A stretch of DNA of 64,000 nt from positions 1 through 64,000 of the forward strand of contig NZ_WOSX01000005.1 in assembly GCF_011516735.1 (NCBI RefSeq), read 5' to 3'. Each line of letters opens with the position of its first letter. Position 1 is the first letter of the stretch. The translations under genes were made by a program, and so were the position numbers. The notes beneath the pieces are model-generated. The model was given only the letters and a program-made list of their open reading frames with translations. It had not been told where the DNA came from and searched no databases. Below are positions 3,531 through 58,373 of this stretch, one piece after another. Source of the stretch: Acetobacter fallax (lineage in GTDB: Bacteria; Pseudomonadota; Alphaproteobacteria; Acetobacterales; Acetobacteraceae).

Positions 3531-3539
3531 AAGTCAGAT

Positions 3540-3994
3540 GAACAGAATGAGGACCTGTTGGGAACTGGCTTTTTTTAAAGTCTCTGGATGTGCTTCAAAA
3601 CCGGTATGGATCGCTTTGTACTGACGGGTGCCCGGTGGGCGAAGATAGAACCGCTGTGCCCTGGAAAGAAGACGGATCGCGGGGGCAACGGGAAGGATAA
3701 CCGACTCTTCATTGAGGCTGTCTTGTGGATAGCCCTTACAGGCAGTCCATGGCGGGACTACCGACGTATTCCGGGCACTGGAACTCGGTTTACCCGCGCT
3801 ACAGCGACTGAACAAAATCCGGGGGTTTTCCAGAAGATTTTCGAGGCTGTCTCTGATGATGCTGACATGGAATATGCCATGATCGACGACACGGTGATCC
3901 GGGTTCACCGCCATGGCCAGGGAGGGGGAAACTTCTCTCCCGGTTCGGAACGACGGCCTCTGCCACGCCCCTTCCCTGAACGTCTCTGCTCGCC
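3540..3994 (+). mobile_element. Decayed IS5-family element, 5' part of transposase only
   Basis: An ATG at 3606 begins an IS5-family transposase N-terminus (MDRFVLTGARWAKIEPLCPG, then DNRLFIEAVLWIALTGSPWRD, then DADMEYAMIDDTVIRVHRHG). Between about 3765 and 3830 the frame is shifted and later restored: the expected segment of the FGNWNSVYRRYSDW type is scrambled. The similarity ends near 3930, so the DDE catalytic C-terminal half is absent. The remnant abuts the 3' end of the convergent cytochrome b561 gene. It appears to have inserted in arsH and then lost its right half by deletion. Confidence 0.75.
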
Positions 3995-4561
3995 TCACGA
4001 ACGGGACGAAGAAGCCCACGGCAGCATGCGTCCGAGGACTTTGTCTTTCAGGACGAACTGGTGAAAAAGGGCCGCCGCGCCATGGCCTGTCGCAAGGCCG
4101 ACAATCAGCCATGCGTTCCAGTGATGCAGCCCCTGAATCCACCCGAGCACCGCTGTTGGAAAATGGCCGAACGGAGAGGAGAACAGGAGGCCGAAAAAAC
4201 TCATCGTCTGTCCGGCGCCCCATCGCCAGAGATAGCCCAGCACGATTTCCGCCACGAGCAGCACGTAGAGTGTGTATTCCACACCAAGGGCGAACATCCG
4301 GTCTCCAGGCCGCAGGAGGTCCGACAGGTGTCGCCCTTTTGTCACGCGCCAGACAATACGAAACGCCATGGTTGCTGTCAGCAGGATACCGGCGGTCAGA
4401 TGCGCCACGACCATCAGATGATGGACGGGTTTTGACGGCCAGCCCCAGGTTTCGCCAAGAGCGAACTGAAACAGCACCAGAAAGGCTGTCGTCCAGTGAA
4501 GGATGATTGTCGGCCTGTCGTAGCGCAGGGTATCGGTGATGTCCGGCACTGGATAGGGCAT
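3995..4561 (-). CDS. cybB: Cytochrome b561
   Basis: A 188-residue integral membrane protein of the prokaryotic b561 family. Four hydrophobic segments are visible, with heme-ligand-type histidines in the first (TIILHWTTAFLVLF), in the second (VHHLMVVAHLTAGILL) and in the last (GLHHWNAWLIVGLATGHGAAALFHQF). These proteins carry two b hemes and move electrons between quinol and other carriers. The length is normal, so the adjoining IS remnant has not removed essential sequence, although the last few residues (WASSSRS) could be altered by the junction. Confidence 0.88.
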   Translation of the reverse strand: MPYPVPDITDTLRYDRPTIILHWTTAFLVLFQFALGETWGWPSKPVHHLMVVAHLTAGILLTATMAFRIVWRVTKGRHLSDLLRPGDRMFALGVEYTLYVLLVAEIVLGYLWRWGAGQTMSFFGLLFSSPFGHFPTAVLGWIQGLHHWNAWLIVGLATGHGAAALFHQFVLKDKVLGRMLPWASSSRS

Positions 4562-4757
4562 GCGTGTCCTGACAAAAATGAAGTCTGAATACTGCCTGGT
4601 ATCATGCTTTCCTGACAGGACGCTGAACAGAACAGATTTTTTAAAATATAAATAACATTGAAAATAACTCGCAATATCAGAATAAAAATACCTGTTGTGG
4701 CGGGATGCTGCAGCTTCTAATCCTGAGCTTTACTGATCCGGAGCCACAGGTCGTCTT

Positions 4758-5453
4758 ATGTCGCGTCTTCACCCCCAAACCGAACGCCATGCCGTCGAGA
4801 AACTGGGATGGCTGCGCGCGGCCGTCCTCGGAGCCAATGATGGAACCCTTTCGACCGGCAGCCTCATTGTCGGGGTCGCCAGTTCCCACGCGGCACACAG
4901 CAGCATTCTCATCGCGGGGCTGTCCGCACTTGTCGCCGGAGCCCTCTCGATGGCGGCCGGCGAATATGTTTCGGTCAGTTCCCAGGCGGATTCAGAGCGG
5001 GCGGATATCGCCCGCGAAAAACAGGAACTTGCCACGGACTGGGACGGGGAAGTTACCGAACTGGCCGGGATCTACCAGGAAAGAGGTCTGGATAAAGATC
5101 TTTCACACAAGGTTGCTGTCGCCCTCATGAAGCATGATGCACTGGGCGCGCATGCACGAGATGAACTGGGCCTTTCCGAGGCCACCGCAGCACGCCCTGT
5201 ACAGGCGGCGTTCGCCTCGGCAACGGCCTTTTCGTCTGGCGCTATATTACCCGTCATGGCGGCTGTTCTGACGCCTGTGACCTGGGTTTCGTGGAGCGTT
5301 TCCCTCATCTCGGTCATCACTCTCGCCATTCTGGGCGTTGTCGGCGCCGTGGCTGGCGGAGCACAGCCCCTGCGTCCCGCATTGCGGGTGACGTTCTGGG
5401 GCGTCATCGCCATGATCGTCACGAGCGGGATCGGTCATCTGTTCGGCGTGTGA
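4758..5453 (+). CDS. VIT1/CCC1-family iron/manganese transporter
   Basis: A 231-residue membrane protein of the VIT family. The N-terminus is typical (WLRAAVLGANDGTLSTGSLI), followed by ALSMAAGEYVSVSSQADSE, which belongs to the family's metal-pathway region, a soluble helical stretch (about residues 75-150), and three C-terminal hydrophobic segments. Family members move Fe2+ or Mn2+ out of the cytosol; the substrate here cannot be read from sequence. It stands alone between cytochrome b561 and the RND operon and adds to the metal-related character of the region. Confidence 0.88.
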   Translation: MSRLHPQTERHAVEKLGWLRAAVLGANDGTLSTGSLIVGVASSHAAHSSILIAGLSALVAGALSMAAGEYVSVSSQADSERADIAREKQELATDWDGEVTELAGIYQERGLDKDLSHKVAVALMKHDALGAHARDELGLSEATAARPVQAAFASATAFSSGAILPVMAAVLTPVTWVSWSVSLISVITLAILGVVGAVAGGAQPLRPALRVTFWGVIAMIVTSGIGHLFGV

Positions 5454-5680
5454 CACTTGCTCAGATGCCCTGCTCGCTGGCCCGTATTGTATAAAATCCT
5501 GTGGAGACCAAATGTTTTCAGGGGATCTTTCTGCCGAAAGTCATAGCAGATCACATACGCTGAGCGCATGACGCTCCTCTGCACGCAGCATCCCGTGCGT
5601 CGGTAGAAAAGACAGCTTAACCCACTCCGTCTGGCTTTCAGCCAGCAAAAACAGATCACTTACAGCCCCCCTGTGAGCCT

Positions 5681-7159
5681 GTGAATCACCGATCGCCGCT
5701 TAGTTCAATGAATGAACACGTTCTGAGCCTGGTGACCCCGACGTCTGTTCTGGGCGGCGTTCAGGAAGCTGTCAGGTTCACCTTGTATGCTGAAGATCCT
5801 GCCGCGGCTCATTCACGCGACGATACAGAAAGCCGACTGAATTTCATGTGTGCTCGTCATGTCGATTATCTGGTCGTCAACCGCGCCCCGGAATGGGCAG
5901 GGATCCATTTCCCTGAAAACCGTACGCTCTATATCGCTCTCACCCTGGTCACCATTTGCTTTTTTTCGAGCCTTATTTCAAAGGCCAGAAGTCAGAGCCT
6001 CACATTCTCTCAGGGGGTGGAAGCGGCCTGGTCCATCGATCCGGCCCGGGCCGAACTGAATACGAACTATCGTTCGGCATCGGCTCGGGCCGAGGCTGCC
6101 GGCTCCTGGTTTGCGGGCGGCCCGATTGTATCGGGTCAGTATTTCGACGATCACGCCATAGGCAGCAATGAGGGTTACACAACCTACGAAGGCAGCGTCT
6201 CCGTTCCGCTCTGGTTGCCCGGACAGGGAAGTGCCACCGTCAAAGCCGCGAAGGCCGAAGCATTGACGGTGCAGCAACGGCTGCATGTGCAACGGATGGT
6301 CGTCGCCATGAAGGTCCTGGACACTTCCGCCGGCGTGCTGATGGCCCGGCGACGCCTTGGTATTGCTCATGCGCTGAGAGAGGCACTTGAGAAAATCATA
6401 TCGTCTGTCCACCATGGCACCCTGTCTGGCGAGACGACCCTGGCTGACGAGCAGGCTGTCTCCGCCGAACTGGCGAATGCATCCAGTGAATATTCACTGG
6501 CGGCCGAGCAGGTTGAAACGGCGACATCGGCGCTTCGCATCGTGCTGGGCCGTCCTGGGGTCCCGGAAATCCTCTCCTGCGATGAGCCGGCTGTAGCGCG
6601 TGCAACGCTGATTTCCGGCAGGATTCTCGAAGACAACGATCCGCGTGTGAGGGCCGCACAGCAGGCCGTCCGCGCTGCGGAAGAGGGCATGCGTCTGGCG
6701 CGGGCTTCATTCATGCCCAATCCGGAAGTCGGTGTCGCTGCGATTCATGAGAAACAATATGGGAGTCCATGGGATGATCGGGTGGGCGTTACAGTGTCCG
6801 TTCCGCTGCCCAGCGATGTCCGCGATGTCCCGATGGAGGCCGAGGCCAGAAACAGACTGGCGGCGGCTACGAGCCAGGAGCAGCAGGCACGCCGCAGCGT
6901 GCGCCAGGAACTGTCACAGGTTTTTGCCCGCCTGACAGCCGCAAAGGACACATTCAGAAATTCAGTGTCGTCTGCTGACGACATGAACAATCGCGCAAAT
7001 GAGATGGCCCGGTCGTGGCAGGCCGGTGAGACATCCCTGATCGAGCTTCTGCGTGCCAGAGCTGCCGCATACAGCGCGCTGCAGAGGCGCAATCAGGTGG
7101 AGATCGCCTGGCATGTCGCAATCATCCGGACATTAATCGCAGCGGGAGAATTCCAGTGA
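5681..7159 (+). CDS. TolC-family outer-membrane factor of a heavy-metal RND pump
   Basis: A CzcC/TolC-type outer-membrane channel protein. The region from about residue 110 onward has the family's long amphipathic helices and a typical end (WQAGETSLIELLRARAAAYSALQRRNQVEIAWH). The secretion signal is probably the hydrophobic stretch near residues 83-103 (LYIALTLVTICFFSSLISKA), which means that the first ~55-80 codons may not be translated; an in-frame ATG is at 5846. The 5681 GTG is the longest possible start and has a weak ribosome binding site. The gene overlaps the adaptor gene by 4 bp (GTGA) and is first in a five-gene operon. Confidence 0.82.
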   Translation: MNHRSPLSSMNEHVLSLVTPTSVLGGVQEAVRFTLYAEDPAAAHSRDDTESRLNFMCARHVDYLVVNRAPEWAGIHFPENRTLYIALTLVTICFFSSLISKARSQSLTFSQGVEAAWSIDPARAELNTNYRSASARAEAAGSWFAGGPIVSGQYFDDHAIGSNEGYTTYEGSVSVPLWLPGQGSATVKAAKAEALTVQQRLHVQRMVVAMKVLDTSAGVLMARRRLGIAHALREALEKIISSVHHGTLSGETTLADEQAVSAELANASSEYSLAAEQVETATSALRIVLGRPGVPEILSCDEPAVARATLISGRILEDNDPRVRAAQQAVRAAEEGMRLARASFMPNPEVGVAAIHEKQYGSPWDDRVGVTVSVPLPSDVRDVPMEAEARNRLAAATSQEQQARRSVRQELSQVFARLTAAKDTFRNSVSSADDMNNRANEMARSWQAGETSLIELLRARAAAYSALQRRNQVEIAWHVAIIRTLIAAGEFQ

Positions 7160-8352
7160 GTTTCAGAATAGTCGTCATCGGACGCCAGAGGTGGCTTCTG
7201 GCGCTGTTCTGCCTCTCCGGAGCGCTCATACAGCCCGCATTCGCGGCAGACAACGAACAGATCATCACGATGGGAGCGGCGGCGCAGGCTAATGCCAGAC
7301 TGGTGATCTCGGTGGTGCGGCATGGCATGCTCGGGGAAAATCTCGACGCAATGGGCACCGTCATGTCTGAGGAGAGCCGTATCGTTCGCATTCATCCTGC
7401 GGGATCAGGAAAAGTTCTGAATATAGCGGTTGTTCCTGGACAGCATGTCCGCAAGGGCGAGGTTCTTCTCACGTATCAGGATCACTCCCTGCATCTGGTC
7501 CGCCTTGAGATGACAAAGGCGCAGTCTGCGCTGTCGACGGCACAGGCGACATATCAGAATGCTGCCGCAGCCTATAGCCGGGGCCGTGAACTGGAAGGGA
7601 CAACGGTTGCAGCCGGAGAAACCAGACGCCGTCTGGCTGTATTCAAAGCGGCAAGGGACGATATTATGGCCCGGCAGGCTGATGTCGATACGCTGAAACA
7701 TCAGCTTGAAGAAGAGTACAACTCCGTGACGGAATCAGACAAGGGGCAGATCAGCCCCGCAGATGAGACATCCGCCATCATCTCGCCGACCACGGGTGAG
7801 GTGCAGAGCGTGCTTGTCGGTGTCGCGGACGATATCTCGCCCGCGACGGAGCTGGTGGCTCTGGCCGACATGTCATCGGTCTGGATCGTCTCAGATATTC
7901 TGCCCCAGGATGCCACCCAGGTTGTCGAAGGTGGCGAGCAGACAACGGAACTTCCGGCAGATGGCGCAATGACGTTGCTGACATCGAAGATAACGTCAGT
8001 CGGCGATCTGGCGGACCCCGCGACCGGCCTTATTCGTGTCATCAGCCGCGCATCCAACCCGGGTGGCCATCTTCACCCGGGCATGTTTCTCAATACGCAT
8101 CTGCCAACCCGTAAACAGACAGAGGGCATCATCGTGCCGGGAGGCGCGGTCACGGATATTGACGGCGTCAGCACCATCTTTCTGCCCGTCGGCCCGGATC
8201 GTTTCCGCCCGCAGGAGGTTCGTGTCGGTGCCGAAAGCGCGGGACAGAAGGTCATCGTCTCCGGTCTCGCGGTGGGCGACAGGGTTGTGACGCATGGTGC
8301 GTTCGCCCTGAAGGCCATCATGCAAATCTCCGATCTGCCCGACGGAGACTGA
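7156..8352 (+). CDS. RND efflux periplasmic adaptor (CzcB-like membrane fusion protein)
   Basis: A 398-residue HlyD-family adaptor linking the inner-membrane pump to the outer-membrane channel. It has an N-terminal signal peptide ending near AFAADN (residue ~31), a lipoyl-type segment (IAVVPGQHVRKGEVLLTYQD), an alpha-helical hairpin with AQSALSTAQATYQNAAAAYS, the second lipoyl half (IISPTTGEVQSVLVGVADDI) and beta-barrel segments (GLIRVISRASNPGGHLHPGM). It starts at a GTG overlapping the TolC-like gene and is followed after 7 bp by the pump gene. Confidence 0.9.
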   Translation: MSFRIVVIGRQRWLLALFCLSGALIQPAFAADNEQIITMGAAAQANARLVISVVRHGMLGENLDAMGTVMSEESRIVRIHPAGSGKVLNIAVVPGQHVRKGEVLLTYQDHSLHLVRLEMTKAQSALSTAQATYQNAAAAYSRGRELEGTTVAAGETRRRLAVFKAARDDIMARQADVDTLKHQLEEEYNSVTESDKGQISPADETSAIISPTTGEVQSVLVGVADDISPATELVALADMSSVWIVSDILPQDATQVVEGGEQTTELPADGAMTLLTSKITSVGDLADPATGLIRVISRASNPGGHLHPGMFLNTHLPTRKQTEGIIVPGGAVTDIDGVSTIFLPVGPDRFRPQEVRVGAESAGQKVIVSGLAVGDRVVTHGAFALKAIMQISDLPDGD

Positions 8353-8359
8353 CGCCGCG

Positions 8360-11300
8360 ATGCGTGCCTTTCTTTCTGCCCTTCAGCTTCGACGCTGGCT
8401 CGTCATCGGCGTGCTCTGCCTGATCTTCGTCGCCGGGTGCCTGCTGGTGCGCGGCCTGCCCGTCGAGGCGGTGCCCGACATCTCGCCGCAGCAGGTGCTC
8501 GTCTCCGTGGTGGCGCCGGGGCTTGCCACAGAGGAGGTCGAGCGGCTGATCACCTTTCCGATCGAGACCAGCATGGCGGGCCTCCCCGACATGACCGATC
8601 TGCGGTCGGTGTCGCGGTCCGGGGTTTCGGTCGTGTATGTCCAGTTCGCCGACGACACGGACATCAATCTCGATCGTACCCGCGTCGAGGAGCGGATCCG
8701 GCAGGCCAGAGCCCTGATCTCCGTGCCGGGCGTGAGCGTGAATATCGGGCCGCTGACAACGGGTCTGGGCGAGATCATGCAGCTGCAGATCAAGGGGGAC
8801 GGCTATTCCCTCATGGATCTGAACCGCCTGATGACGTGGACGGTCGCACCGCAACTGAAACTGGTGCCCGGGGTGGTGGACGTCAACGTGAACGGGGGCG
8901 CGGAGGAGACGTTCCAGGTCGCCCTCGACCAGGGCCGCCTTCTGGCGCTGGGCGTTTCGGTCGACGATGTCTTCCGGGCCGTGGACGGCAACAATTCCGC
9001 GTCGGGCGGCGGCTGGATCGAGCATGACGAGGAGCAGCAGATCGTCGTCGGACGCGGGCTGATCGGCTCGCTCGACGATTTCGGTTCCATTCCCGTACGG
9101 ACGAACGTCAACGGGTCCGCCATTTTCCTGCGGGATGTGGGTCGGATCTCGATGGGGCCGAGAACACGCCTGGGCGCCGTGACGCGGGACGGTCAGGGAG
9201 AGATCGTCATTGGTGTGGTCATGATGCGCATGGGCGCGAGTTCCGATGCGACGCTGGCAGCCATCAATGCGGCGTTGCCCGGTATCCGCCAGTCCCTGCC
9301 CAAAGGCGTGACGCTCGACCCCTATTACGTGCGCTCGACGCTGACGGACAGCACCATCGCAACGGTGAAGGAAAATCTCGTCCTCGGCGCGGTCCTTGTG
9401 CTCGGCGTGCTGATCGTGGTGATCGGCGACTGGCGGGCCTCGCTGGTCATCGCCTCCGTCATTCCTTTCGCCCTTGTCTGCGCCATGACGGGAATGCGCG
9501 CATTCGGGATTTCCGCCAACCTGCTGAGCCTGGGCGCCATTGATTTCGGCATGATCGTCGACAGCTCGCTCGTCGTGGTGGAAAATCTCATGACCCATCG
9601 CGCGCGCGATCGCGCCAGTGGCCAGAACACGACGCTGACCACGCTCGCGGTGTCCTCGGCAGCGGAAGTGCTCAGGCCCGTGAGCTTCGGCATTCTCGTC
9701 ATCGTCATGGTCTATCTGCCGATCCTGACCCTGCAGGCCATCGAAGGCAAAATGTTTCGCCCCATGGCGCAGACGGTCATCATGGCTCTCCTCGCCTCGC
9801 TCTTTTACTGCGTCGTCGGCGTGCCTGTCATCGCGGCGCTGGTGATGAAATCGAACGGTCGCCATAATGATACGCGGCTGGTCGCCGCCCTTCGTCGCGT
9901 CTATGGCCCGATGCTGGCCTGGTGTGAAGCCCGACCGCGCACCCTCTTCGGCACGACGATTGCGATCTTCGGCCTTTCCATCTGGATGGGTCTGCATCTG
10001 GGCGGCGAGTTCATCCCCTCTCTCGGCGAGGGCGCTCTGACGGTGACGACGACGCGCCTGCCGGGGATCTCGCTCTCGGAGGCCGTGAAGGAGGTCTCCC
10101 TGCAGGAACGCATCCTGCGCCGGTTTCCGGAAGTGACCAGTGTCGTGAGCAACACGGGCACGTCGGCAATCCCGACCGATCCGATGGGCGTCAACGAGAC
10201 CGACAGCTTCATTTTCCTCAAGCCGCCGTCGCAATGGATCACCGCGCGCACGCAGGAAGGTCTTGTCACGGCGATGAGCCGGGTAATAAGCGATGAGTTG
10301 CCGGGCGTGCAACAATCATGGAGCCAGCCCGTGCAGATGCGGATGGATGATCTGCTGTCCGGCGTGCGCACACAGATCGCTGTTTCGATCTATGGCGATG
10401 ACCTCGCCACGCTGACACGCCTTGGGGACAGGGTGGCCGGTATCATGAAAGCCATTCCCGGCGCGGCGGATGTGGCGCCGCAGGGTGCCGGGAGCATCTC
10501 TTTCATCCACATCGACATCGACCGCAGGCAGGCCGCTCGTCTTGGGGTCTCGCAGCAGGAACTTCTGAATGTGGTGGAGGCTGTCGGCGGCCATATCGGG
10601 CGGCCCGTTACGGTCAACAATGCGCTGATCAGCACGCAGATCCGCTATGATCCCGCGCAGGCCGGGACACGGGATCAGATCGCCCGCCTGAGGATCCGCC
10701 GCGCCGACGGTCGGGGGGCTGTCCTTCTTTCGGAGGTAGCGAAGGTTACGGTTCAGAACGGTCCGCCCCGCATCAGTCGGGACGCTATCCGTCGCCGTCT
10801 GATTGTCCAGGCGAACGTGCGCGGGCGCGATCTCAGCTCTTTCGTGACGGAAGCGCAAAGAGCGGTCAGTAAAAAGGTCAGCCTGCCCGCGGGCTATCGC
10901 ATGGTCTGGGCGGGTCAGTTCCAGAATCTGCGTTCAGCCATGGCTCGTCTGGAACTTGTTGTGCCGGTCGCCCTGATGCTGATTTTTGCCCTGCTGATTC
11001 TTGCGCTGAACTCCGTCTGGCTGGCGGGGCTTGTTTTCATCAATCTGCCTGTCGCCGCAACAGGCGGTATTCTTGCTCTGTTTCTTCGTGGCCTGCCGTT
11101 CAGCGTCTCCGCCGGGATTGGCTTTATCGCCCTGTTCGGCGTGGCCGTTCTGAACGGTGTGGTGCTTGTCACTGCGATCCGGTCTCTGCGTCTGGCAGGG
11201 CGGAGCGCTGCCCGGGCGGCCTTTGAGGCGGCGGAAGAGCGTTTCCGGCCTGTCATGGCCACTGCTCTGGTGGCCAGTCTGGGCTTCATCCCCATGGCCG

Positions 11301-11437
11301 TTTCGACAAGCGCCGGCGCCGAGGTCGAGCGGCCGCTGGCCACTGTTGTGATCGGCGGGCTGATCTCCTCGACACTTCTGACTCTGCTTGTGTTGCCGTC
11401 ACTGTATGCTCGCATCATGAAAAATCGTGAATCATGA
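8360..11437 (+). CDS. CzcA-type heavy-metal RND efflux pump
   Basis: A 1025-residue inner-membrane RND transporter of the heavy-metal (HME) group. In the fourth membrane segment it carries DFGMIVDSSLVVVEN (about residues 395-409), matching the D-x5-D-x6-E charge pattern of HME pumps for divalent cations such as Zn, Co, Cd or Ni. The duplicated architecture of six membrane segments and a large periplasmic loop in each half is evident. It works with the adaptor and the TolC-like protein encoded just upstream. The precise metal cannot be deduced. Its stop overlaps the response-regulator start by 4 bp (ATGA). Confidence 0.92.
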   Translation: MRAFLSALQLRRWLVIGVLCLIFVAGCLLVRGLPVEAVPDISPQQVLVSVVAPGLATEEVERLITFPIETSMAGLPDMTDLRSVSRSGVSVVYVQFADDTDINLDRTRVEERIRQARALISVPGVSVNIGPLTTGLGEIMQLQIKGDGYSLMDLNRLMTWTVAPQLKLVPGVVDVNVNGGAEETFQVALDQGRLLALGVSVDDVFRAVDGNNSASGGGWIEHDEEQQIVVGRGLIGSLDDFGSIPVRTNVNGSAIFLRDVGRISMGPRTRLGAVTRDGQGEIVIGVVMMRMGASSDATLAAINAALPGIRQSLPKGVTLDPYYVRSTLTDSTIATVKENLVLGAVLVLGVLIVVIGDWRASLVIASVIPFALVCAMTGMRAFGISANLLSLGAIDFGMIVDSSLVVVENLMTHRARDRASGQNTTLTTLAVSSAAEVLRPVSFGILVIVMVYLPILTLQAIEGKMFRPMAQTVIMALLASLFYCVVGVPVIAALVMKSNGRHNDTRLVAALRRVYGPMLAWCEARPRTLFGTTIAIFGLSIWMGLHLGGEFIPSLGEGALTVTTTRLPGISLSEAVKEVSLQERILRRFPEVTSVVSNTGTSAIPTDPMGVNETDSFIFLKPPSQWITARTQEGLVTAMSRVISDELPGVQQSWSQPVQMRMDDLLSGVRTQIAVSIYGDDLATLTRLGDRVAGIMKAIPGAADVAPQGAGSISFIHIDIDRRQAARLGVSQQELLNVVEAVGGHIGRPVTVNNALISTQIRYDPAQAGTRDQIARLRIRRADGRGAVLLSEVAKVTVQNGPPRISRDAIRRRLIVQANVRGRDLSSFVTEAQRAVSKKVSLPAGYRMVWAGQFQNLRSAMARLELVVPVALMLIFALLILALNSVWLAGLVFINLPVAATGGILALFLRGLPFSVSAGIGFIALFGVAVLNGVVLVTAIRSLRLAGRSAARAAFEAAEERFRPVMATALVASLGFIPMAVSTSAGAEVERPLATVVIGGLISSTLLTLLVLPSLYARIMKNRES

Positions 11438-12102
11438 AAATCCTGATCATCGAAGATGAACCAGCTCTTGGTTCAGCCGTCAGGGATCGTGTCCGTCAGG
11501 CTGGTCATGTTGCCGACTGGTTCAGAACTCTGACTGACGGGCGGGCCGCCCTGAAAGCATCCGCTTACGATTTTCTTCTGCTCGATCTCGGGCTTCCGGA
11601 CGGTAATGGCCGGGATCTTCTGCGCGAGATCCGGCGGAATCGTTCGTCTCTGGCGGTCCTGATCACAACCGCTCAGGACCAGATCAGCGACAGGATTGCG
11701 GGTCTGTCAGAGGGAGCGGACGATTATATCGTCAAGCCTTATGATCTCGATGAGCTTGTGGCCCGTATCGAAGCCGTTTCCAGACGATACACCGCATTGC
11801 CGGATAATATTGTGGTCATTGATGATGTGGAGATTGATCTTTCTCGGCGACAGCTCGGACGTGACGGGCAGACCATCGATCTTTCCGCGCGCGAATGGGC
11901 CATCGTCGAACTTCTCGCCCGCCGTCCGGGAGCATTGTGCAGCCGTGAGCAGATCGAAGACGCCCTTTATGGCCTCAGCGACGATGTGGAGAGCAATGCC
12001 ATTGAAGTCTTTATCAGCAGGATACGGAAGAAAACCGGACCTGGCCTGATCGTGACGGTCCGGGGCAGAGGTTACAGCCTTGCAGGAAGTTCATCCCGAT
12101 GA
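11434..12102 (+). CDS. OmpR/PhoB-family response regulator
   Basis: A 222-residue two-component regulator. The receiver domain (residues 1-115) contains the acidic pair near E7-D8, the phosphoacceptor Asp at residue 51 (LLLDLGLPDGNG) and the KPYDLDEL segment. A C-terminal winged helix follows (SAREWAIVELLARRPGALCS, and SNAIEVFISRIRKK). It overlaps the pump gene upstream and the kinase gene downstream by 4 bp each, so it most likely controls this efflux operon, as CzcR or CopR do in related systems. Confidence 0.93.
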   Translation: MKILIIEDEPALGSAVRDRVRQAGHVADWFRTLTDGRAALKASAYDFLLLDLGLPDGNGRDLLREIRRNRSSLAVLITTAQDQISDRIAGLSEGADDYIVKPYDLDELVARIEAVSRRYTALPDNIVVIDDVEIDLSRRQLGRDGQTIDLSAREWAIVELLARRPGALCSREQIEDALYGLSDDVESNAIEVFISRIRKKTGPGLIVTVRGRGYSLAGSSSR

Positions 12103-13484
12103 AGCGCTGGAGCCTGGCGTCCCGCATCGTGTCCGGGACACTGATCATCGTGCTCGGCGCGCTGGTGCTCCTCAGTATCCTCGTCGCGGCCTTTACCCGC
12201 TATGAAGTCACGGAGCGTCTCGACAACTCGCTGCAGGAAGTGGCCGAGCGCCTGGAGTTCGTCATCAGTGAACTGGGGAGAACCGGTCAGGGGAGCGCCA
12301 CGCCAGGTGGTCAGGTCGCACGCCTGCCCGGTGTGAACCGGCGCACGCTGGCCTATCAGATTGCTTCAACGGACGGTCGGCTTGAGGTCCGGTCGCAGAA
12401 TGCACCAGAGACGCTGTTTGTTCCCCGGCTGAAAATGGGATTTTACAATGTGCCGTCGTTCCGGGTGTATATTGTCCCTTCCGTATCCGGTCGCCATTAC
12501 ATTCTGGTGGGTGAGCCGGCCTTTCACAGAAATGAAGCGGTCAGACGAGCCATCCTGATTTCAGTTCTGCCAATGGTGATATTTTTCCCGGCAATCTGGG
12601 TTCTGGTACGCTGGCGTGTCCGTCGCGCGATGCGCCCGCTCACAAGCCTTCAGCATGAAATCAGAAGCAGAGGCGGCGCCAATCTGGCCCCAATCCCGCC
12701 GCTGGACCTGCCCGAAGAGCTTGTGTCGATCCACTCAGCCGTCAACCTTCTGCTGGAACGCCTGAAAATGGCGCTTTCGACCGAACGTGCCTTTGCCGCG
12801 AATGCCGCGCATGAGCTGCGAAATCCCGTAGGCGCACTTCTGGCACAGGTGCAGGTTCTCAGAAATCTGCTTCAGCGTTCAGAATATGAAGAGCGCGCGA
12901 CGACCATCATGCACCAGGCCCGCAGGATTGGCCGGATGATGGAAAAACTTCTTCAGCTATCACGAGTAACGTCGGGAATCGCTCTTACGGGGAATATGTT
13001 TGATCTGGTGCCTGTTGTCCGGTTTCTGGCACGGGAGCTTGAGCGGGAAAAAGACCAGACCATTGACCTTTCAGGAGTCCCTCATCTCATGATTCGGGGT
13101 GACATGGATGTCGCAGGGATCCTGTTTCGTAATCTTCTGGAAAATGCCGTTCTTCATGGTTCTTCCCTGCAGCCGGTACGCGTGGTTATCACAGAAGAAG
13201 CTGAAATTCTGATCTTCAATGACTGTGATCCACTCACATCGGAGATTTTGCAGGATATGGAAAAGCCTTTCGTGAGAGGCAAAACAGACGCTGAAGGAAG
13301 CGGCCTGGGGCTTGCGATAGTGCGGCAGGTCTCTCTTCAACTTCAGGCTGACATCACGATAACCTCCCCTGTTCCTGGAAAAACAAGGGGTATTGTCGTT
13401 ATCGTTCATTTCCCGTCCGGCGATACCGAAGCCGACGCAAGTTTTAAAGGAATCAAATCAACATGGTTCATCACCTCCTCATGA
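12099..13484 (+). CDS. Sensor histidine kinase of the RND operon
   Basis: A 461-residue membrane kinase. Two membrane segments (about residues 14-36 and 147-170) flank a periplasmic sensor loop, followed by a HAMP-like linker. The H-box AANAAHELRNPVGAL lies near residue 236, with an N-box (NLLENAVLHG) and a G-box (GSGLGLAIV). It presumably senses periplasmic metal and phosphorylates the upstream response regulator. The C-terminus after the kinase core is short and ends with a Ser/Thr-rich tail. It is the last gene of the operon; decayed IS sequence follows. Confidence 0.92.
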   Translation: MKRWSLASRIVSGTLIIVLGALVLLSILVAAFTRYEVTERLDNSLQEVAERLEFVISELGRTGQGSATPGGQVARLPGVNRRTLAYQIASTDGRLEVRSQNAPETLFVPRLKMGFYNVPSFRVYIVPSVSGRHYILVGEPAFHRNEAVRRAILISVLPMVIFFPAIWVLVRWRVRRAMRPLTSLQHEIRSRGGANLAPIPPLDLPEELVSIHSAVNLLLERLKMALSTERAFAANAAHELRNPVGALLAQVQVLRNLLQRSEYEERATTIMHQARRIGRMMEKLLQLSRVTSGIALTGNMFDLVPVVRFLARELEREKDQTIDLSGVPHLMIRGDMDVAGILFRNLLENAVLHGSSLQPVRVVITEEAEILIFNDCDPLTSEILQDMEKPFVRGKTDAEGSGLGLAIVRQVSLQLQADITITSPVPGKTRGIVVIVHFPSGDTEADASFKGIKSTWFITSS

Positions 13485-51923: not shown

Positions 51924-52089
51924 TCAATGGCTTTCATAAAGTTGAGCGCTCTGGATCGTGCAGTGAGATTATCACCGGTAAAGCTATATCCTCAAGATTT
52001 CATACCGCTCACCCCAGAGGAAGGTTTTAACCTCGCTCGACATACAGTTTATGTAAATAAAACGTCTGTTATTTTAGGTTCGGACGCAG

Positions 52090-52440
52090 ATAGCAGACGC
52101 TCTGCTCTCCCCCCGCCTGCGCCATTGAGCGCAGCGACCAATGCGTGGCATCGCGCGGTGTTTCTTCCGGGGTCATGCCGATCGTCTGTGCGATCTCCTC
52201 GTCGCCGATCGAACGCGGCGTCCCTGGCCGGGGTTCATCGTAAAGCCCGTCCAGACGGTCCGCCGCAAAACGCCGGCGCCACTTGCCAACCGTGTTGATG
52301 TCCGCGCCCGTCAGGTCACGGATCGCTTTGTTCTCATGCCCATTGGCGGCGGCAAGGACAATACGGGCTCCCCGCGCAAGCGCCGTGCGTCCCATTCGAT
52401 TGCCCCTGCCATCAGGATAATCATATAAACTTCTCGATCA
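52090..52440 (-). pseudogene. IS630-family transposase remnant (N-terminal part)
   Basis: The minus-strand frame reads ARIVLAAANGHENKAIRDLT, then NTVGKWRRRFAADRLDGLYD, then EPRPGTPRS and DATHWSLRSMAQA, a standard IS630 N-terminal helix-turn-helix segment. It stops at about 52090 and continues into unrelated codons. The DDE catalytic half is missing. It marks the left edge of the putative defence operon. Confidence 0.85.
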
Positions 52441-52486
52441 GGACACTAGTTAGCTGATCGGATTGGTGCGGAGACTGTCGCTTTCG

Positions 52487-52525
52487 CTCCGCCCCAAATT
52501 AGCTAGTCTTCCCACTAGGGCGGAG
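52487..52525. promoter_or_regulatory. Nested inverted repeats upstream of the defence operon
   Basis: CTCCGCCC (52487-52494) pairs with GGGCGGAG (52518-52525), and within the loop CTAGT (52503-52507) pairs with ACTAG (52514-52518). The structure ends about 50 bp before the first gene. It could be an operator, a structured leader or an end of the neighbouring IS; the sequence alone does not decide. Confidence 0.4.
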
Positions 52526-52575
52526 GGGCGGTACGGTGCTTTCTTGCTTAATTCGCGGGTGAGCAGGAGGGGGAA

Positions 52576-52866
52576 TTGGTGGACGAGGACGAGACAGCAG
52601 CACCAGAGGAGGCGGTGGCGTTCGAAATGATCGCGGCGCTTGCCGGGCCGGACATGGATGTGTTGGAAACGCCAGACGCGTTTCTGACCGGGGTCGCTGC
52701 TGCGCTCAACGCCTCCGATGATGTGGATGCCGATTTGGCCGCGATCCTGACGGATCATCTGTTGACCGTGATGCCGCACGAAAATGTCATTGCGAATGCC
52801 AAGGCGGCGATCCTGACGCTGGCCGCTGAGCGCGCGGCCACGGCCGAGGAAGCGGCCGATGGCTGA
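52576..52866 (+). CDS. Small acidic protein, first gene of putative defence operon
   Basis: A 96-residue acidic, Ala-rich, helical protein with no family that I recognise. It starts at a GTG preceded by AGGAGGGGG and overlaps the ABC ATPase gene by 8 bp. Its size, helical nature and tight coupling upstream of an SMC-like ATPase resemble the middle components of ABC three-component (ABC-3C) conflict systems, but this rests on context only. Confidence 0.7.
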   Translation: MVDEDETAAPEEAVAFEMIAALAGPDMDVLETPDAFLTGVAAALNASDDVDADLAAILTDHLLTVMPHENVIANAKAAILTLAAERAATAEEAADG

Positions 52867-55333
52867 TCCGACGCTGTTTCACTCGCTGACGCTCGAAGGC
52901 TTTCGCGCCTATCTTCAGCCTAAGACCTTCGATTTCAGCAAGAAGCCGAGCCTCGCGATTTTCGCGCCCAATGGTCTCGGCAAGTCGAGTGTCATCGACG
53001 CGCTCGAATTCCTCTTCTCCGAACATGGCACGCTCGATCGGCTCGGGCAGCGTGCGCTCAATAACCAGGCCGGCCCGTCCGCGCTGGTCCATAATGGCGC
53101 GCAGGCGGCAGGGATCGCGCCGGTGGTCAAGTTCACGACCATCACCGGCAAGGCCACCACTGCGGGAAGCCGCACGGCGCAGGGCAATCCACGCCCGATC
53201 CATGCAGCAGCCACCGCAATGAAAGCCGGGTTCGTCGTCGCGCCGATCATCCGCGGTTATACGCTGCGCACTTTCGTCGAAGAGCAGAAGGCGGAGACCC
53301 GCTACAGCGACGTGGTGAGCTGGCTGCAGCTCTCGCCACTGGTCGAGGTCCAGAAGAATCTCCGGCTGCTGCGCCGCGAGGTCAAGGCCGCTGCCGAGAG
53401 CACGACTGAGCAGGTTCGTCTCGCCGGGCAGCTACGCACCGAGACCGCCCAGGCCGTCCAGGCGTGGGACGACGCGGCTGTGCTCGACTTCGTCAACACA
53501 AACGTCATTGCGCCACTCGATCCCGCATTGACGATGGCGGCGCTCGATGCCGCAGACGCCGGCTATGTCGATATCGGCAAACGCGTCGCGGCCGAGGAGA
53601 AGAGCGTCGGCCTCGCCGGTCTGCGACAGGTCCGCAACTCGGTTATCGCGCTGTGGCAGAAGATTGTGCCCGAGGACGGCGGCGACCCCGAATATTCGGG
53701 TGCCATTGCCGCCTTCGACGAAGCGCTGGCGGTGTTGGCCGATGCCATGGTCACCGAAGCCGACGAGCGCGACAAAGCGGCGGACACGGTCTTCCGGTCG
53801 GTGTGGAAGGAAGCCGAGAAACTGTTTGCCGACGATGCTGCGGCTCCGGACAAATGTCCGGTCTGCGCGACGGCGATCGGCGATACCGCTGCCGGAAGCG
53901 TCCCCGCGATCCGCGATCTTCTGAAGACCCACCTCGACGATCTGCAAAGCTACAACGACGCCAAGACCGCGCTGGACGACGCCGACAAAGCCACTATCAA
54001 GGCGCATAACCAGTTGATCGCGCGGCTTCCAGCGATGATCGATCATCTGTCCGAAGATGATCCCGACGACTTCAGGGCAGCACTCATCGAGTATCAGGCC
54101 GGGGTTGCCGCATGGCCGGCCGCCGCCGCCCCTGCGTCCGCCGCGATCACCGCCGAGCTGGAGGCGCGCCTCGCCGGTCTCGACCAGGATATCGCCGACA
54201 TCGAGGACAAGCAGGGCGAACATACCTGGGTGAAGGCAAAGGCGAGCATCGACCGACTGGTGAAGCTCCAGACTGATGTAGCGATGGCGACACGGACGAC
54301 CGAGGAACTCACCGCGCTGCACGAGTCTCTCGGCACCCAGGCCACACTCGTCTCGGGCAAGATTCGCGAGAAGATTCAGTCGCTGCTCGACACCCTCCAG
54401 GCGCCGATGAACGACATCTACAAGGAAATCCAGGGCGACAAGGCCAAGCCGATCCGGCTCGAGCTGCCCAGGGAGGACGATACCAATCAGCAGCGCATGC
54501 AGCTGGTCATCGACTTCGCCGACAATCGTCAGGGCGTTGCGCCCGGCGGCTATCTGAGCGACTCCCAGATTCACTCGGTGGCGCTGGCGCTGCGCCTCGC
54601 GGCGATCAAGAAGTTCAACAGAGCCGCCCCTGTGATCGCGCTCGACGATGTCGTTACCTCCTATGACGCCGACCATCGCCGCGCGATCGGCGCGCTACTC
54701 GCCAAGATGTTCACCGACTGCCAGATCATCCTCGTCACCCATGACGAGCGGTTCTTCAATCACTTGAAGGATCAGCTCGCCGCGAAGGACTGGCAGTTCA
54801 CGCGCATCATCGGACTAGACCCGGCATACGGCCCGCGCTTCGCCGACCATAAGGTGACAGACGAGATGATCGCCGATCGCTGGGACAAGGGCGAATCCGC
54901 TGCCAACGAGATGCGTCAGGCCGAGGAGGAATGGCTGCTCGGCATCGCTCGCGGCTTCGGCGTCAACGTCCGCATCCGTCAGCTCGAGAAGGCCTATTCC
55001 TACGAGCGATCCGAATTGGCCTCGGCGATCGGCGGCTTCCTCAGCGATATCAAATTGACGCCGGCCGACGTGCCCGGGGTCAACAACCGATTCATCACCA
55101 GCTTGGTGAAGGGCGACATCGAGAATTTCGGCAGCCACTTCCAGGACGCGCCCTATGGCGATGGCTCGATCGGCGACGAGAAGACACGCTGGGGCGAATT
55201 CAAAGCATTCTGCGGTCAATTCGAATGCGTTTGTGGCCGAACGAAGTATCAGAGGCCTTTCGGCCTTAGCAAGCCGGTCTGCGCTCACAATAAATGCGAG
55301 ACACAATTCGAGTTCAAACCGCTTGTCGTGTGA
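52859..55333 (+). CDS. SMC/Rad50-like ABC ATPase with zinc hook, putative defence component
   Basis: An 824-residue ATPase. The N-terminus has a P-loop, FAPNGLGKSSVIDALEF (about residues 35-51), with Ala in place of the usual first Gly. Two long helical arms follow, interrupted by CPVC at residues 333-336, a Rad50-type hook. The C-terminal head has the signature LSDSQIHSVALALRLA (566-581), Walker B APVIALDDVV (590-599) and the H-loop VTHDE (His 628). After the head comes an extra ~190-residue region ending in a Cys-x-Cys ... Cys-x4-Cys cluster (VCGRTKY to AHNKCET), a probable zinc ribbon. It is the second gene of the operon, coupled to the small protein gene by an 8-bp overlap. Confidence 0.85.
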   Translation: MADPTLFHSLTLEGFRAYLQPKTFDFSKKPSLAIFAPNGLGKSSVIDALEFLFSEHGTLDRLGQRALNNQAGPSALVHNGAQAAGIAPVVKFTTITGKATTAGSRTAQGNPRPIHAAATAMKAGFVVAPIIRGYTLRTFVEEQKAETRYSDVVSWLQLSPLVEVQKNLRLLRREVKAAAESTTEQVRLAGQLRTETAQAVQAWDDAAVLDFVNTNVIAPLDPALTMAALDAADAGYVDIGKRVAAEEKSVGLAGLRQVRNSVIALWQKIVPEDGGDPEYSGAIAAFDEALAVLADAMVTEADERDKAADTVFRSVWKEAEKLFADDAAAPDKCPVCATAIGDTAAGSVPAIRDLLKTHLDDLQSYNDAKTALDDADKATIKAHNQLIARLPAMIDHLSEDDPDDFRAALIEYQAGVAAWPAAAAPASAAITAELEARLAGLDQDIADIEDKQGEHTWVKAKASIDRLVKLQTDVAMATRTTEELTALHESLGTQATLVSGKIREKIQSLLDTLQAPMNDIYKEIQGDKAKPIRLELPREDDTNQQRMQLVIDFADNRQGVAPGGYLSDSQIHSVALALRLAAIKKFNRAAPVIALDDVVTSYDADHRRAIGALLAKMFTDCQIILVTHDERFFNHLKDQLAAKDWQFTRIIGLDPAYGPRFADHKVTDEMIADRWDKGESAANEMRQAEEEWLLGIARGFGVNVRIRQLEKAYSYERSELASAIGGFLSDIKLTPADVPGVNNRFITSLVKGDIENFGSHFQDAPYGDGSIGDEKTRWGEFKAFCGQFECVCGRTKYQRPFGLSKPVCAHNKCETQFEFKPLVV

Positions 55334-57744
55334 GGAAAGCAAGGTTGAAGCGCTCTCCTATTGATGAGGAAAAACCGAGGAATGCCGACCTATTTCTTCA
55401 TCGGCGGCAAGGTGAGGGTGTGAGAACTGTGCACAGTCAAATTGAAACTACGGAACGCGATCCACGTAGCGCGCAGGGCCCCTGGAGCGATCTCGCGCTT
55501 CACACGATCGGTTGGCGCGCCTTTCAGGACCTTTGCTCGCAAGTCTGCGAAGTGGTCCTAAGGCGCCCCGTCGAAATATTCCGAGAAGCGCAGGACGGCG
55601 GTCAGGATGCGGTCTTTCTCATACCCTCGCCAAATGGCGAGCAGCTCATCGGCACGATCCAGTGCAAGCACACTTCGGACGCCGGCAAAGCGTTGAAGCT
55701 CAGCGACCTCTCCGCTGAAATCGGTAATGTCGAGGAACTCGTTAAAGGCGGCCAGGCAGACACATACATCTTCATGACCAACATGAGCGTGGATGCGCCG
55801 GTTGCGGCCGCCATGCGCGCCAAACTGCGCGAGTTCGGCGTTCGCAAGCCGCATATCCTGGGCCGCCAATACATCGTTCGGGTCATCAAGAGCAGCGCAC
55901 GCCTGCGCGCCCTCGTCCCGCAGGTTTACGGTCTAGGGGATTTGACAGCGATCGTCGATGAACGGCTTAGCGAGCAGAGCCGCGCGCTGCTCGATAGCTG
56001 GATTCCGAAACTTCGTACCTATGTTCCAACTCAGGCGCATCGCGACGCCGTCAACGCCATCTCGGACCACGGCGTGGTGCTTCTGCTCGGCAATCCTGCG
56101 AGCGGCAAATCGGCGATCGGTGCGATCGTTTCAACGATCGCTTCGGAAAATCCCGACAACACCGTGTTGGCGCTGACCAGTCCACGCGATTTCGAGGCTG
56201 GCTGGAATCCCAACGATCCCGGGCGATTCTTTTGGATTGATGACGCTTTTGGCTCGAACGTGCTGCGCGACGATTACGTACAGGATTGGGCGTCGGCGTT
56301 TTCGAAGCTGCGCGCAGCAATCAAGCACGGCAACCGCTTCCTGCTGACATCGCGCAAGCATATTTACGAAGCAGCTCGGCGCCGACTGGGGCAGCGTAAT
56401 CTAGCGCAATTCGCTGATGGCAGCGCCGTGGTCGACGTCGGTGAACTTACCTTCGAAGAGAAGGCACAAATCCTTTACAACCACATCAATTTCGGCGAGC
56501 AGAGCCAAAGCTGGCGTTCGAACGTCAAGCCGCATCTAGCCGCCGTTGCCGCCGTCGAAGAGTTCTTGCCCGGAATCGCTGAGCGGCTTGGCGACCCGAA
56601 CTTTACCAAGGGACTGACGCCGCGCGAAAGTTCGCTCGTCCGCTTCATGGAGGAGCCGACCGAGCACCTTATCGACACGGTCAGCGCACTGGACGAGCAA
56701 CTCCGGGCCGCGCTCTATCTCATCTACGTCCATCAAGCCGGCTTCGATCCCAGCGATCATGATGCGGCGGCAGCGCAGGCGGTTTCGGACTTGACCGGTT
56801 TCACCCTAGCCAAGATCCAAGATTGCTTCGCCGAATTGAAGGGATCCTTTCTCAAGCTATCCGGCGCCAAATGGACCTTCGCGCATCCGACCATCTCGGA
56901 TGCTCTGACAGAGGTTTTGCGGCAAAAACCTCATATGATGGCCGCACTGATCCGCGGCGCACCAATTGATACGATCCTCGGCAGCTTCACCTGCGAGGGA
57001 TCGCCGCTTATTCGGGATGCCTTGGTCATTCCGTCCGGGCTGAACGAAGCGCTGGTAGCGCGTCTCAGCCACACGCCGGACGAAAACCATCGAAATTGGA
57101 TGCTGTTTCACTTCCTGTCCTACAGGGCGAACGACGCGGTTTTCGCCAAACTAATCGGACAGTTTCCGGAGATACTCAGGCGCCACTGCTGGCAGTCCGA
57201 TCCCCTCGCCAATGACCCTCGGTTTCATACCTACGGCCGCGCCCATCAATTCGGTCTACTCCCGGAAGATTTGCGGTGCGAGGCCGCAAGGAGCCTCGAA
57301 TCCGCAGCGCTCTCAGACCTCGATATGTCCTTCTTTGCCGAGAGGGGGATGCTCGCACTCATATCGCCGCTTCGTCTCGTCCGATTAGGCTTGGCACTGC
57401 GAACCAATCTTCTGCCCGCTCTTGAGGAGAGGATCGACGAGATCGCCGCAGATGCCGATCTGGATGAAGAGCCCGACAGCCACTTCAAGAAATTGCTCGG
57501 TGCGCTCGAGCGCATCGAGGAGATGGGCGTCGAGCTGGATGACGATGCGGTTGGCTTGGTCGGCGACGCGCGGGATCAGGTGAATCGGGCGGTCGACGGA
57601 CTTGAAGAACGCAAGCGGGAGCGCGACGAAGAGAACGAAGACGACACGGACTGGACCTATATCGTCACGCAGAAGAAAGAAGAACCGTCACCGCCGGAAC
57701 TTGCGGCTACGAAGCGCTCGGTCTTCGACGATGTCGATAAGTGA
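55294..57744 (+). CDS. Mrr-type nuclease fused to STAND-like NTPase, putative defence effector
   Basis: An 816-residue protein. Residues ~65-190 form a Mrr-like restriction nuclease: WRAFQDLCSQVCEVVL, then DGGQDAVFLI (catalytic Asp 105), then IGTIQCKHT (Gln 123 and Lys 125, a D-QxK site). Residues ~240-450 are a P-loop NTPase with Walker A LLLGNPASGKSAIG (Gly 266-Ser 273), Walker B RFFWIDDAFG and sensor LLTSRKH, fitting the nSTAND3 group of STAND NTPases. A helical region follows, ending in a highly charged coil (EERKRERDEENEDDTD). The ATG at 55294 overlaps the ATPase gene by 40 bp; an in-frame GTG at 55429 with an upstream AAGGTGAGGG is the alternative start. Confidence 0.85.
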   Translation: MRDTIRVQTACRVRKARLKRSPIDEEKPRNADLFLHRRQGEGVRTVHSQIETTERDPRSAQGPWSDLALHTIGWRAFQDLCSQVCEVVLRRPVEIFREAQDGGQDAVFLIPSPNGEQLIGTIQCKHTSDAGKALKLSDLSAEIGNVEELVKGGQADTYIFMTNMSVDAPVAAAMRAKLREFGVRKPHILGRQYIVRVIKSSARLRALVPQVYGLGDLTAIVDERLSEQSRALLDSWIPKLRTYVPTQAHRDAVNAISDHGVVLLLGNPASGKSAIGAIVSTIASENPDNTVLALTSPRDFEAGWNPNDPGRFFWIDDAFGSNVLRDDYVQDWASAFSKLRAAIKHGNRFLLTSRKHIYEAARRRLGQRNLAQFADGSAVVDVGELTFEEKAQILYNHINFGEQSQSWRSNVKPHLAAVAAVEEFLPGIAERLGDPNFTKGLTPRESSLVRFMEEPTEHLIDTVSALDEQLRAALYLIYVHQAGFDPSDHDAAAAQAVSDLTGFTLAKIQDCFAELKGSFLKLSGAKWTFAHPTISDALTEVLRQKPHMMAALIRGAPIDTILGSFTCEGSPLIRDALVIPSGLNEALVARLSHTPDENHRNWMLFHFLSYRANDAVFAKLIGQFPEILRRHCWQSDPLANDPRFHTYGRAHQFGLLPEDLRCEAARSLESAALSDLDMSFFAERGMLALISPLRLVRLGLALRTNLLPALEERIDEIAADADLDEEPDSHFKKLLGALERIEEMGVELDDDAVGLVGDARDQVNRAVDGLEERKRERDEENEDDTDWTYIVTQKKEEPSPPELAATKRSVFDDVDK

Positions 57745-57968
57745 CGATCACCAGATGGGACGATCGGATACAGGCGTATAACTCCGCAACTTCGGCAACT
57801 CCTGTCCAGCGGCCGGAAGCAGCCCGAATGACTGCTCTTGTGAGACTACAACGTTCGTGCAGCCAGTAACGAACGTCTCAATCTGGTCGTTAATCGTCAT
57901 AAGCGTGAGCACTGCGAATGGCAGCTTTCGATCACTCCTCCCCGATAACCGACTTACTGCTTGCCCCC
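57745..57968. other. Gap between effector gene and VapC gene
   Basis: About 220 bp with no supported gene. A 78-codon minus-strand frame is present but has no recognisable domain and a poor start. This is probably a recombination junction of foreign DNA. Confidence 0.35.
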
Positions 57969-58373
57969 CTAATCTGCCGTCCAATCCTCAGAACGCAACC
58001 CGTTTACCCGGGTAAATTCTCGCAGGTTTCCGGTTACAACGACAAGTCCTCTGCTCCGGGCGTGTCCGACAATCATCAAATCGTAAGGCCCGATGATACA
58101 ACCACGAGCTTCCAGGTCCGCCCTGATTTCTGCTGTATGCGCAGCGGCATCATCATCAAACGGTAAAACAGACAGACGCGCGGCAAAATGCTCAACCTCA
58201 CGTCGGATCTTTGCCGGATTTTGAGATTTTTCGGCCCCATAAAGAAGTTCGTAAAGCACGACACCTGAGATACAGAGCGCCTCGGCGTTATCGTTGAAAC
58301 GTTCGCGCAGGCCTTGTGGACGATCGCGTAAAACGCGAATGCAAAAATTTGTATCGAGAAGATAACGAAGCAT
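57969..58373 (-). CDS. vapC: VapC-type PIN toxin
   Basis: A 134-residue PIN ribonuclease, FitB/VapC group. The acidic site residues are in YLLDTNFCIRVL (Asp), VVLYELLYGAEK (Glu), IIGPYDLMIVGHARSRGL (Asp) and VTGNLREF. It starts one base inside the vapB stop (TGATG) and forms the second, complete toxin-antitoxin pair of this island, unrelated in sequence to the pair at 47.0 kb apart from the PIN fold. Confidence 0.9.
   Translation of the reverse strand: MLRYLLDTNFCIRVLRDRPQGLRERFNDNAEALCISGVVLYELLYGAEKSQNPAKIRREVEHFAARLSVLPFDDDAAAHTAEIRADLEARGCIIGPYDLMIVGHARSRGLVVVTGNLREFTRVNGLRSEDWTAD

Follow-up and report, generated by a model that had tools for sequence, protein, structure and literature searches.

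A small acidic protein and a zinc-hook ATPase form a two-gene core with a changing third gene, here a putative Mrr-nSTAND3 nuclease, in Acetobacter fallax

The first 64,000 nucleotides of contig NZ_WOSX01000005.1 from Acetobacter fallax, referred to below as the window, contain three consecutive genes for a small acidic protein, a Rad50-like ATP-binding cassette (ABC) ATPase, and a nuclease fused to a STAND-type NTPase. An earlier reading of the sequence (the original prediction) described them as a candidate three-gene anti-phage system. The question raised by this locus is whether the three genes belong together and whether their products act in one pathway. Comparison of related loci answers the first part as follows: the small gene and the ATPase gene are a fixed core, and the slot behind them is occupied by different genes. 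For the second part, we give an even chance to the reading that the locus encodes an SMC-like two-gene core, made up of the small acidic protein and the zinc-hook ABC ATPase, behind which the third gene (here the Mrr-nSTAND3 nuclease) can be exchanged, and that all three products would work in one pathway. The genes are located as follows:

52576..52866, plus strand: gene of the small acidic partner, 95-96 amino acids (aa), start at TTG 52576 or GTG 52579, net charge -19; an open reading frame (ORF) adjoining the ATPase start
52859..55333, plus strand: Rad50/RecF/SMC-type ABC ATPase, 824 aa; matches SMC_N (2e-17) and AAA_23 (9e-10); aligned with its relatives in 39 rows (alignment A5)
55334..55419, plus strand: 86-nt gap from the ATPase stop to the likely start of the nuclease, free of listed promoter- or terminator-like sites
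55420..57744, plus strand: putative Mrr-like nuclease fused to an nSTAND3 NTPase, 774 aa from GTG 55420; matches nSTAND3 (1.6e-35) and the PADLOC candidate family PDC-S73 (4.5e-27)

Occurrence of the gene pair

The examined set comprised 63 loci: 59 from a scan of species-level genomes with the ATPase alignment, the window, locus L071, and the plasmid loci L005 and L006. Seven loci without the ATPase N-terminus were left uncounted, which gave 56 loci. The scan relied on two ATPase motifs, GYLSDSQI and DD[VI]VTSYD, and relatives devoid of these motifs are invisible to it. In 55 of the 56 loci, whose ATPase identities range from 36 to 100%, the ATPase start is accompanied by a small gene. This number includes 54 cases recognized by script and one further locus, L052, whose small ORF lies in the ATPase's own frame, outside the script's rule. 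The sole exception to the pairing, L033, is a broken copy. Judged by record titles, the pair loci cover six phyla, i.e. Pseudomonadota, Chloroflexota, Planctomycetota, Actinomycetota, Acidobacteriota, and Myxococcota, with many metagenome-assembled genomes (MAGs) among them.

The slot directly behind the pair was occupied in these 56 loci by the following genes: a nuclease (7 loci); a DUF3223 protein (11); an HD-CE/HATPase protein (6); and some other gene or none (32, part of which end close to a contig edge). Nine of the DUF3223 cases were counted by script, while L046 and L036 were assigned from coordinates (the latter is a 155-aa ORF located 242 bp away). The one DUF3223 third-slot protein that was checked matched HamC with 170 bits. 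No third gene recurs in the deep relatives from the Chloroflexota. The nuclease follows the pair in the window, L008, L009, L012, L014, L035, and genome G236 (seen as L071). The same three-gene order, followed across genomes, occurs in 7 of 56 loci, whose nuclease-bearing ATPases form one clade, against 55 of 56 for the pair, and the idea of a fixed three-gene system had to be given up. With respect to co-occurrence, the outcome is split: the pair is constant, the nuclease is also found elsewhere or without the pair, and the linkage of the trio is real in one clade.

Two other proteins are possible third-slot genes. In Bradyrhizobium sp. URHD0069 (L039:10436-15271), a 1612-aa PDC-M54A protein (1250 bits) lies directly after the ATPase. 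A Lon-type protease with an N-terminal extension is encoded 83 bp behind the ATPase in a Reyranella MAG (L040:10556-13531).

Both the ATPase and the nuclease are sporadic in genome collections. At E ≤ 1e-30, the ATPase is held by 2 of 385 genomes of the class (the window genome and G236, which both also carry the nuclease) and the nuclease by 4 of 385. Three of 398 genomes of the phylum hold the nuclease at E ≤ 1e-60, with no new genome among them. Two of 200 genomes of the family hold the ATPase, the one additional ATPase being that of G749 (62%). The viral_contigs collection, scanned with the ATPase and nuclease alignments, yielded no confirmed relative; the phage collection gave no ATPase and, for the nuclease, a single match of 29% identity that covered 22% of the query; and at the DNA level, the nuclease gene was not matched in E. 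coli genomes. The gene pair is not named in the literature searched, which comprised open-licence papers, and the two-gene core is without a name in Pfam, NCBIfam, and PADLOC as searched.

Gene organization and protein features

The three ORFs were confirmed at 52576-52866, 52859-55333, and 55294-57744, all on the plus strand, and the protein types assigned to them in the original prediction were borne out by family matches and invariant motifs. The genes had also been regarded as coupled by overlaps of 8 and 40 bp. The 8-bp overlap between the small gene and the ATPase gene is genuine; in relatives as well, the small ORF stops at or near the ATPase start. The 40-bp overlap between the ATPase and the nuclease genes is a start-codon artefact, which results from picking the first ATG in frame. 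This follows from the nuclease homologues, whose length is about 772 aa and whose first residue corresponds to residue 43-49 of the 816-aa ORF, and from the Sphingobium copy (L014), which shares 93.6% identity over residues 39-816 and has its extra N-terminus in another frame. The nuclease is likely to start at GTG 55420 or 55429, and a length of 774 aa, used for residue numbers below, is more likely than the 816 aa given originally. With GTG 55420 as the start, the ATPase and nuclease genes are 86 nt apart. The search for structured RNAs gave zero Rfam matches across 50-60 kb of the window.

The small ORF is coding: its differences from four relatives pile up at codon position 3 (6/6/11, 12/4/21, 21/16/41 in L012, and 21/14/44 for positions 1/2/3). 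The median net charge among 47 small proteins is -6, compared with -19 here. The small protein gave zero matches in Pfam, NCBIfam, and PADLOC at E ≤ 1 and zero matches among PDB sequences; it is still recognizable where the ATPase of the locus is 36% identical.

The ATPase carries the following motifs and domain, all on the plus strand:

52964..52987, plus strand: Walker A motif APNGLGKS, aa 36-43; N38, G41, K42, S43, and S44 are invariant in A5
53855..53866, plus strand: zinc-hook motif CPVC, aa 333-336; C333, P334, and C336 are invariant in A5
54554..54568, plus strand: ABC signature LSDSQ, aa 566-570; L566, S567, D568, and Q570 are invariant and S569 almost so in A5
54632..54649, plus strand: Walker B motif VIALDD, aa 592-597, with Asp at the place of the catalytic Glu; L595, D596, and D597 are invariant in A5
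54776..55330, plus strand: C-terminal domain, aa 640-824, with Cys 790, 792, 808, and 813 invariant in A5

Family matches listed for the ATPase, including weak ones to RecF and SMC models, stop by aa 645, so that residues 646-824 lie beyond them. The ATPase profile matched 24 PDB sequences, mostly SMC and Rad50 heads.

Two motifs of the third protein are of particular relevance:

55597..55668, plus strand: nuclease motif GGQD (aa 60-63) ... QCK (aa 81-83); G61, D63, Q81, and K83 are invariant in A4
56089..56112, plus strand: STAND P-loop GNPASGKS, aa 224-231; G229 and K230 are invariant in A4

The D-QxK residues D63, Q81, and K83 are invariant throughout alignment A4 (18 sequences, identity down to 31%). 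The match to Mrr_cat (7e-4, 20.1 bits) is slightly under the cut-off of 21. The nuclease has zero matches among PDB sequences and 1052 homologues at E ≤ 1e-3; among the 120 matches listed, alpha-, beta-, and gammaproteobacterial names occur at about 80% identity. A Rad50-like ABC arm with a small partner and a STAND/Mrr-like protein as its plausible effector, as envisaged originally, is a supported description of the locus.

Linkage between the ATPase and the nuclease

In an ATPase tree with 30 labelled rows, the nuclease label requires one change (support 100), the DUF3223 label five, and the HD-CE label four. In the nuclease tree, 13 of 13 ATPase-linked nucleases share a clade of 27 rows (support 99), in which the remaining 14 are database proteins with unseen gene context; five sampled nucleases without this gene order lie outside that clade. 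Distances between ATPases and between nucleases are correlated, with r = 0.95 for 13 pairs, seven of which were read directly and six inferred from a match in length between the longest contigs carrying the ATPase and the nuclease hits, and r = 0.91 for the 10 pairs left after removal of three near-copies; 0 of 5000 permutations reached as high a value in each case.

The three genes also occur as a shared block of DNA:

52375..57970, no strand assigned: block of about 5.6 kb that contains only these genes; identity of 98-99% to L008, L009, and L035, where the flanks differ
52069..52395, minus strand: remnant of an IS630-family transposase at the left edge; its part 52091-52384 also adjoins the block in L008, L009, and L035

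Besides the window, the hosts of this block are Acetobacter lambici, Acetobacter nitrogenifigens, and Gluconobacter sp., which makes four Acetobacteraceae genomes with the window's included, and the IS630 sequence lies alongside. The Sphingobium copy is 92.7% identical over 52451-57889. Transposon ends were not evident, with no inverted repeat of at least 10 bases between 51951-52600 and 57701-58200. In L010, the DNA match breaks off at 55323, the 3' end of the ATPase gene, in agreement with a swap of the third gene at this junction. A hint of the link also comes from L027, where a relative of the nuclease (36%) is located behind the pair, one gene further on, as a separate association.

Judging from clade clustering, co-divergence, and the shared block, the adjacency of the trio is beyond chance and the trio is a real co-inherited unit. 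The nuclease was probably recruited once in its ATPase clade and has been co-inherited since then.

A second hint is given by locus L010, which belongs to Sphingomonas pruni and has no nuclease behind the pair: it contains another PDC-S73 protein (L010:3505-5847, 463 bits) with a TIR-like N-terminus about 2 kb upstream on the opposite strand.

One pathway or two modules

The trio looks like a virus or plasmid defence locus. If its products act in one pathway, the ATPase would dimerize via its zinc hook and, together with the small partner, clamp foreign or abnormal DNA, such as ends or replication intermediates, in an ATP-dependent manner. The clamped state would be passed on to the nuclease, perhaps via the C-terminal four-Cys domain. 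The nuclease would then oligomerize through its STAND NTPase and cut DNA, which would stop the phage or plasmid or kill the infected cell. The DNA signal, the nuclease's contact with the core, the DNA cutting, and the defence role are inferred. Such a pathway would have a Rad50-type DNA sensor drive a STAND (NLR-like) nuclease, combining two immune sensing principles, and would offer a natural case of a DNA-clamping ATPase that controls a STAND nuclease. Lamassu and DndDE would gain a further counterpart among immune cores built from a small protein and a Rad50-like ATPase. With a core that stays the same while its third gene turns over, one core could be combined with different effectors, which would allow a direct test of the properties by which effectors plug into an SMC-like sensor.

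Several observations weigh against this reading. The ATPase and nuclease genes do not overlap, and three loci inside the nuclease clade (L010, L011, and L013) retain the pair with no such nuclease behind it. Counting the 14 context-unseen rows on the nuclease tree as unlinked gives 7 changes for the link label (12.0 on average after shuffling), which leaves a single nuclease recruitment consistent with the tree, not shown by it. Co-divergence is equally expected from two independent cargoes in one block, and its calculation includes the inferred pairs mentioned above. The nuclease is also found without the pair, and on plasmids, at 65-84% identity, the ATPase of the pair does not lie alongside. 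Finally, the seven flanking genes checked in the window, i.e. two hydrolases, a MerR regulator, a DJ-1/PfpI protein, an epimerase, a purine/cytosine permease, and a dehydrogenase, have metabolic, regulatory, or transport functions and none is a defence gene. Of the border originally described, the IS630 remnant and VapBC stood, and the defence-island setting in the window was not supported.

Another explanation, which we regard as rather unlikely, is that two independent defence modules lie side by side. One would be the small-ATPase pair; the other would be a STAND nuclease of the PDC-S73 kind that acts autonomously, like Avs, using its C-terminal half to sense a phage protein and cutting DNA. 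PADLOC lists the nuclease family as the candidate PDC-S73, and its S series presumably holds single-gene candidates. The third protein matches PDC-S73 over its nuclease and NTPase part; it differs in that the match is partial (profile positions 12-342 of 752) and in its position behind an ATPase pair. It also resembles Avs (AVAST) proteins, in which an N-terminal effector is fused to a STAND NTPase; Avs4 is such an Mrr-STAND protein. No Avs profile was among the four PADLOC families that the third protein matched at E ≤ 1, and the PADLOC library presumably contains Avs models. The nSTAND3 domain is shared with Avs5, a SIR2-STAND defence protein in which it is predicted (PMC12931631); the protein studied here differs in having an Mrr-like effector rather than SIR2 and in its length of 774 aa.

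The majority of pair copies occur without the nuclease, and the nuclease is found in other company. On a Methylocella plasmid (L002:10221-11977), a gene for a MarR-like helix-turn-helix protein is followed by a 253-aa gene without a known Pfam family and then by the nuclease, each overlapping the next by 4 bp. On a Roseibium plasmid, the nuclease is preceded by an OLD-like ATPase gene with a 4-bp overlap at the nuclease start. Nuclease relatives on Mesorhizobium (65%) and Piscirickettsia (30%) plasmids have no evident partner. The 4-bp overlaps with upstream genes in Methylocella and Roseibium, however, indicate that the nuclease is often second in an operon, which speaks against its autonomy; the clustering of nuclease-bearing ATPases, the co-divergence, and the same-strand spacing of 86 nt fit one unit as well. 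Sequence cannot settle the choice between one pathway and two travelling modules, and we modestly favour one pathway.

On the single-pathway reading, a wider generalization can be proposed tentatively, as a possibility that we hold with less than even confidence: a widespread SMC-like immune core, in which a conserved partner of 65-96 aa joins a zinc-hook ATPase whose C-terminal four-Cys domain serves for docking, may license interchangeable effectors, i.e. a STAND nuclease in this locus and HamC-type DUF3223 or HD/HATPase proteins in others.

Within 12 kb on the Mesorhizobium plasmid where the nuclease stands alone, there are genes with the annotations TIR-domain protein and ABC-three-component (ABC-3C) system (L004:19519-26340).

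Relationship to known defence systems

No named system in PADLOC 2.0.0 matches all three components, in line with the original prediction. One close comparison is with Lamassu/ABC-3C. LmuB was the best PADLOC family for the ATPase (83 bits, PDLC03859) and for 39 of 39 relatives, LmuB models giving the two widest counts among the ATPases scanned. This match is not specific, since a control SbcC, encoded beside SbcD, scored 88 bits on PDLC03859. LmuC, for which the PADLOC library presumably contains models, was not matched by any of 47 small proteins (PADLOC, E ≤ 0.1). The LmuA match of the third protein (PADLOC, E 0.008) does not identify it as LmuA. As described in PMC10586767, Lamassu systems combine a zinc-hook ATPase, a small partner, and variable effectors including nucleases; the E-to-Q change in Walker B is general in them but not universal, and LmuC is missing from some. 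The Rad50-like zinc-hook ATPase, the small partner, and the exchangeable effectors are common to the loci studied here. The differences from that description are the gene order (small protein-ATPase-effector), the ATPase length of 824 aa with an extra C-terminal four-Cys domain, and the Walker B Asp597, which is invariant in A5 where the E-to-Q change would be expected (PMC10586767).

Membership of the ATPase family in Lamassu/ABC-3C is thus not supported by these comparisons. A divergent branch of it, with the ATPase as a far LmuB, the small protein as a far LmuC, and the third gene as effector, is improbable given the SbcC score, the unmatched LmuC, and the departures in order, length, and Walker B. 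In favour of such a branch, LmuB models match all 39 ATPases scanned, and the zinc hook, the small partner, and the variable effector agree with Lamassu. A further result speaks for it and against our reading: LmuB models are far apart, the true LmuB of L025 scoring 514 bits on its own model and 67 on PDLC03859, so that by scores alone a divergent LmuB branch may exist. In L025 (Nitrobacter winogradskyi, L025:3338-6680), this LmuB gene and same-strand ORFs of 172 and 334 aa lie upstream of the pair and probably constitute a full Lamassu system.

The DndDE or CxC-ABC-DndE core of Dnd and Pbe likewise joins a coiled-coil ABC ATPase to a small protein; the two are obligate partners, and the pair recruits further genes (PMC10853773). 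The loci studied here share this pairing and the recruited genes; they differ in the hook, which is CPVC (CxxC) and not CxC, and in the acidic small protein. The PADLOC match to PbeC was weak, and DndE, a partner with two ribbon-helix-helix domains, was absent from the family matches of the small protein and of the 47 small proteins in Pfam, NCBIfam, and PADLOC. A likeness to Hachiman type II, which includes HamC (PMC8565338), is limited to the HamC-type DUF3223 proteins in the third slot of relatives outside the window; those neighbours of relatives that were checked had no match to HamA or HamB.

That the pair is a RecF/SbcC-like DNA repair or maintenance module without an immune role, with third genes as passengers, would agree with the RecF and SMC profile matches, the SbcD-SbcC genes that adjoin the pair or its third gene in two loci, and the missing recurrent third gene in Chloroflexota, but is hardly probable in view of the patchy presence in class and family genomes (2 of 385 and 2 of 200), the plasmid carriage, the spread as a block, and the defence genes near several relatives.

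Genomic surroundings

The defence genes near relatives comprise type IIG and type I restriction-modification genes (L011, L013), LmuB (L025), PDC-S37/Hhe (L038), PDC-M54A (L039), AbiEii and SIR2 (L046), HerA (L047), and, by annotation, MmeI and AbiE (L005). No defence-gene enrichment is claimed from this list, since chosen neighbours were checked without a control set.

VapBC was confirmed on the right side of the three genes in the window and resembles genes of 18 plasmid records, 16 of which are from Acetobacter. A stretch at about 46.2-47.7 kb resembles plasmid genes annotated as tyrosine-type recombinase. Positions 1332-13443 of the window are similar to plasmids of acetic acid bacteria with arsenic and heavy-metal resistance-nodulation-division (RND) efflux genes, and the window looks like plasmid or island DNA.

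A further gene duo recurs among the examined loci (L016:13277-18030, L038:11492-16288, and L003:4797-9550). One gene encodes a protein of about 1160 aa, which is AAA_27 in L003; the other, of 423 aa, bears the annotation DNA repair exonuclease in that locus. The duo lies close to the small-ATPase pair in two loci, while in Roseibium it is found in the vicinity of the STAND nuclease.

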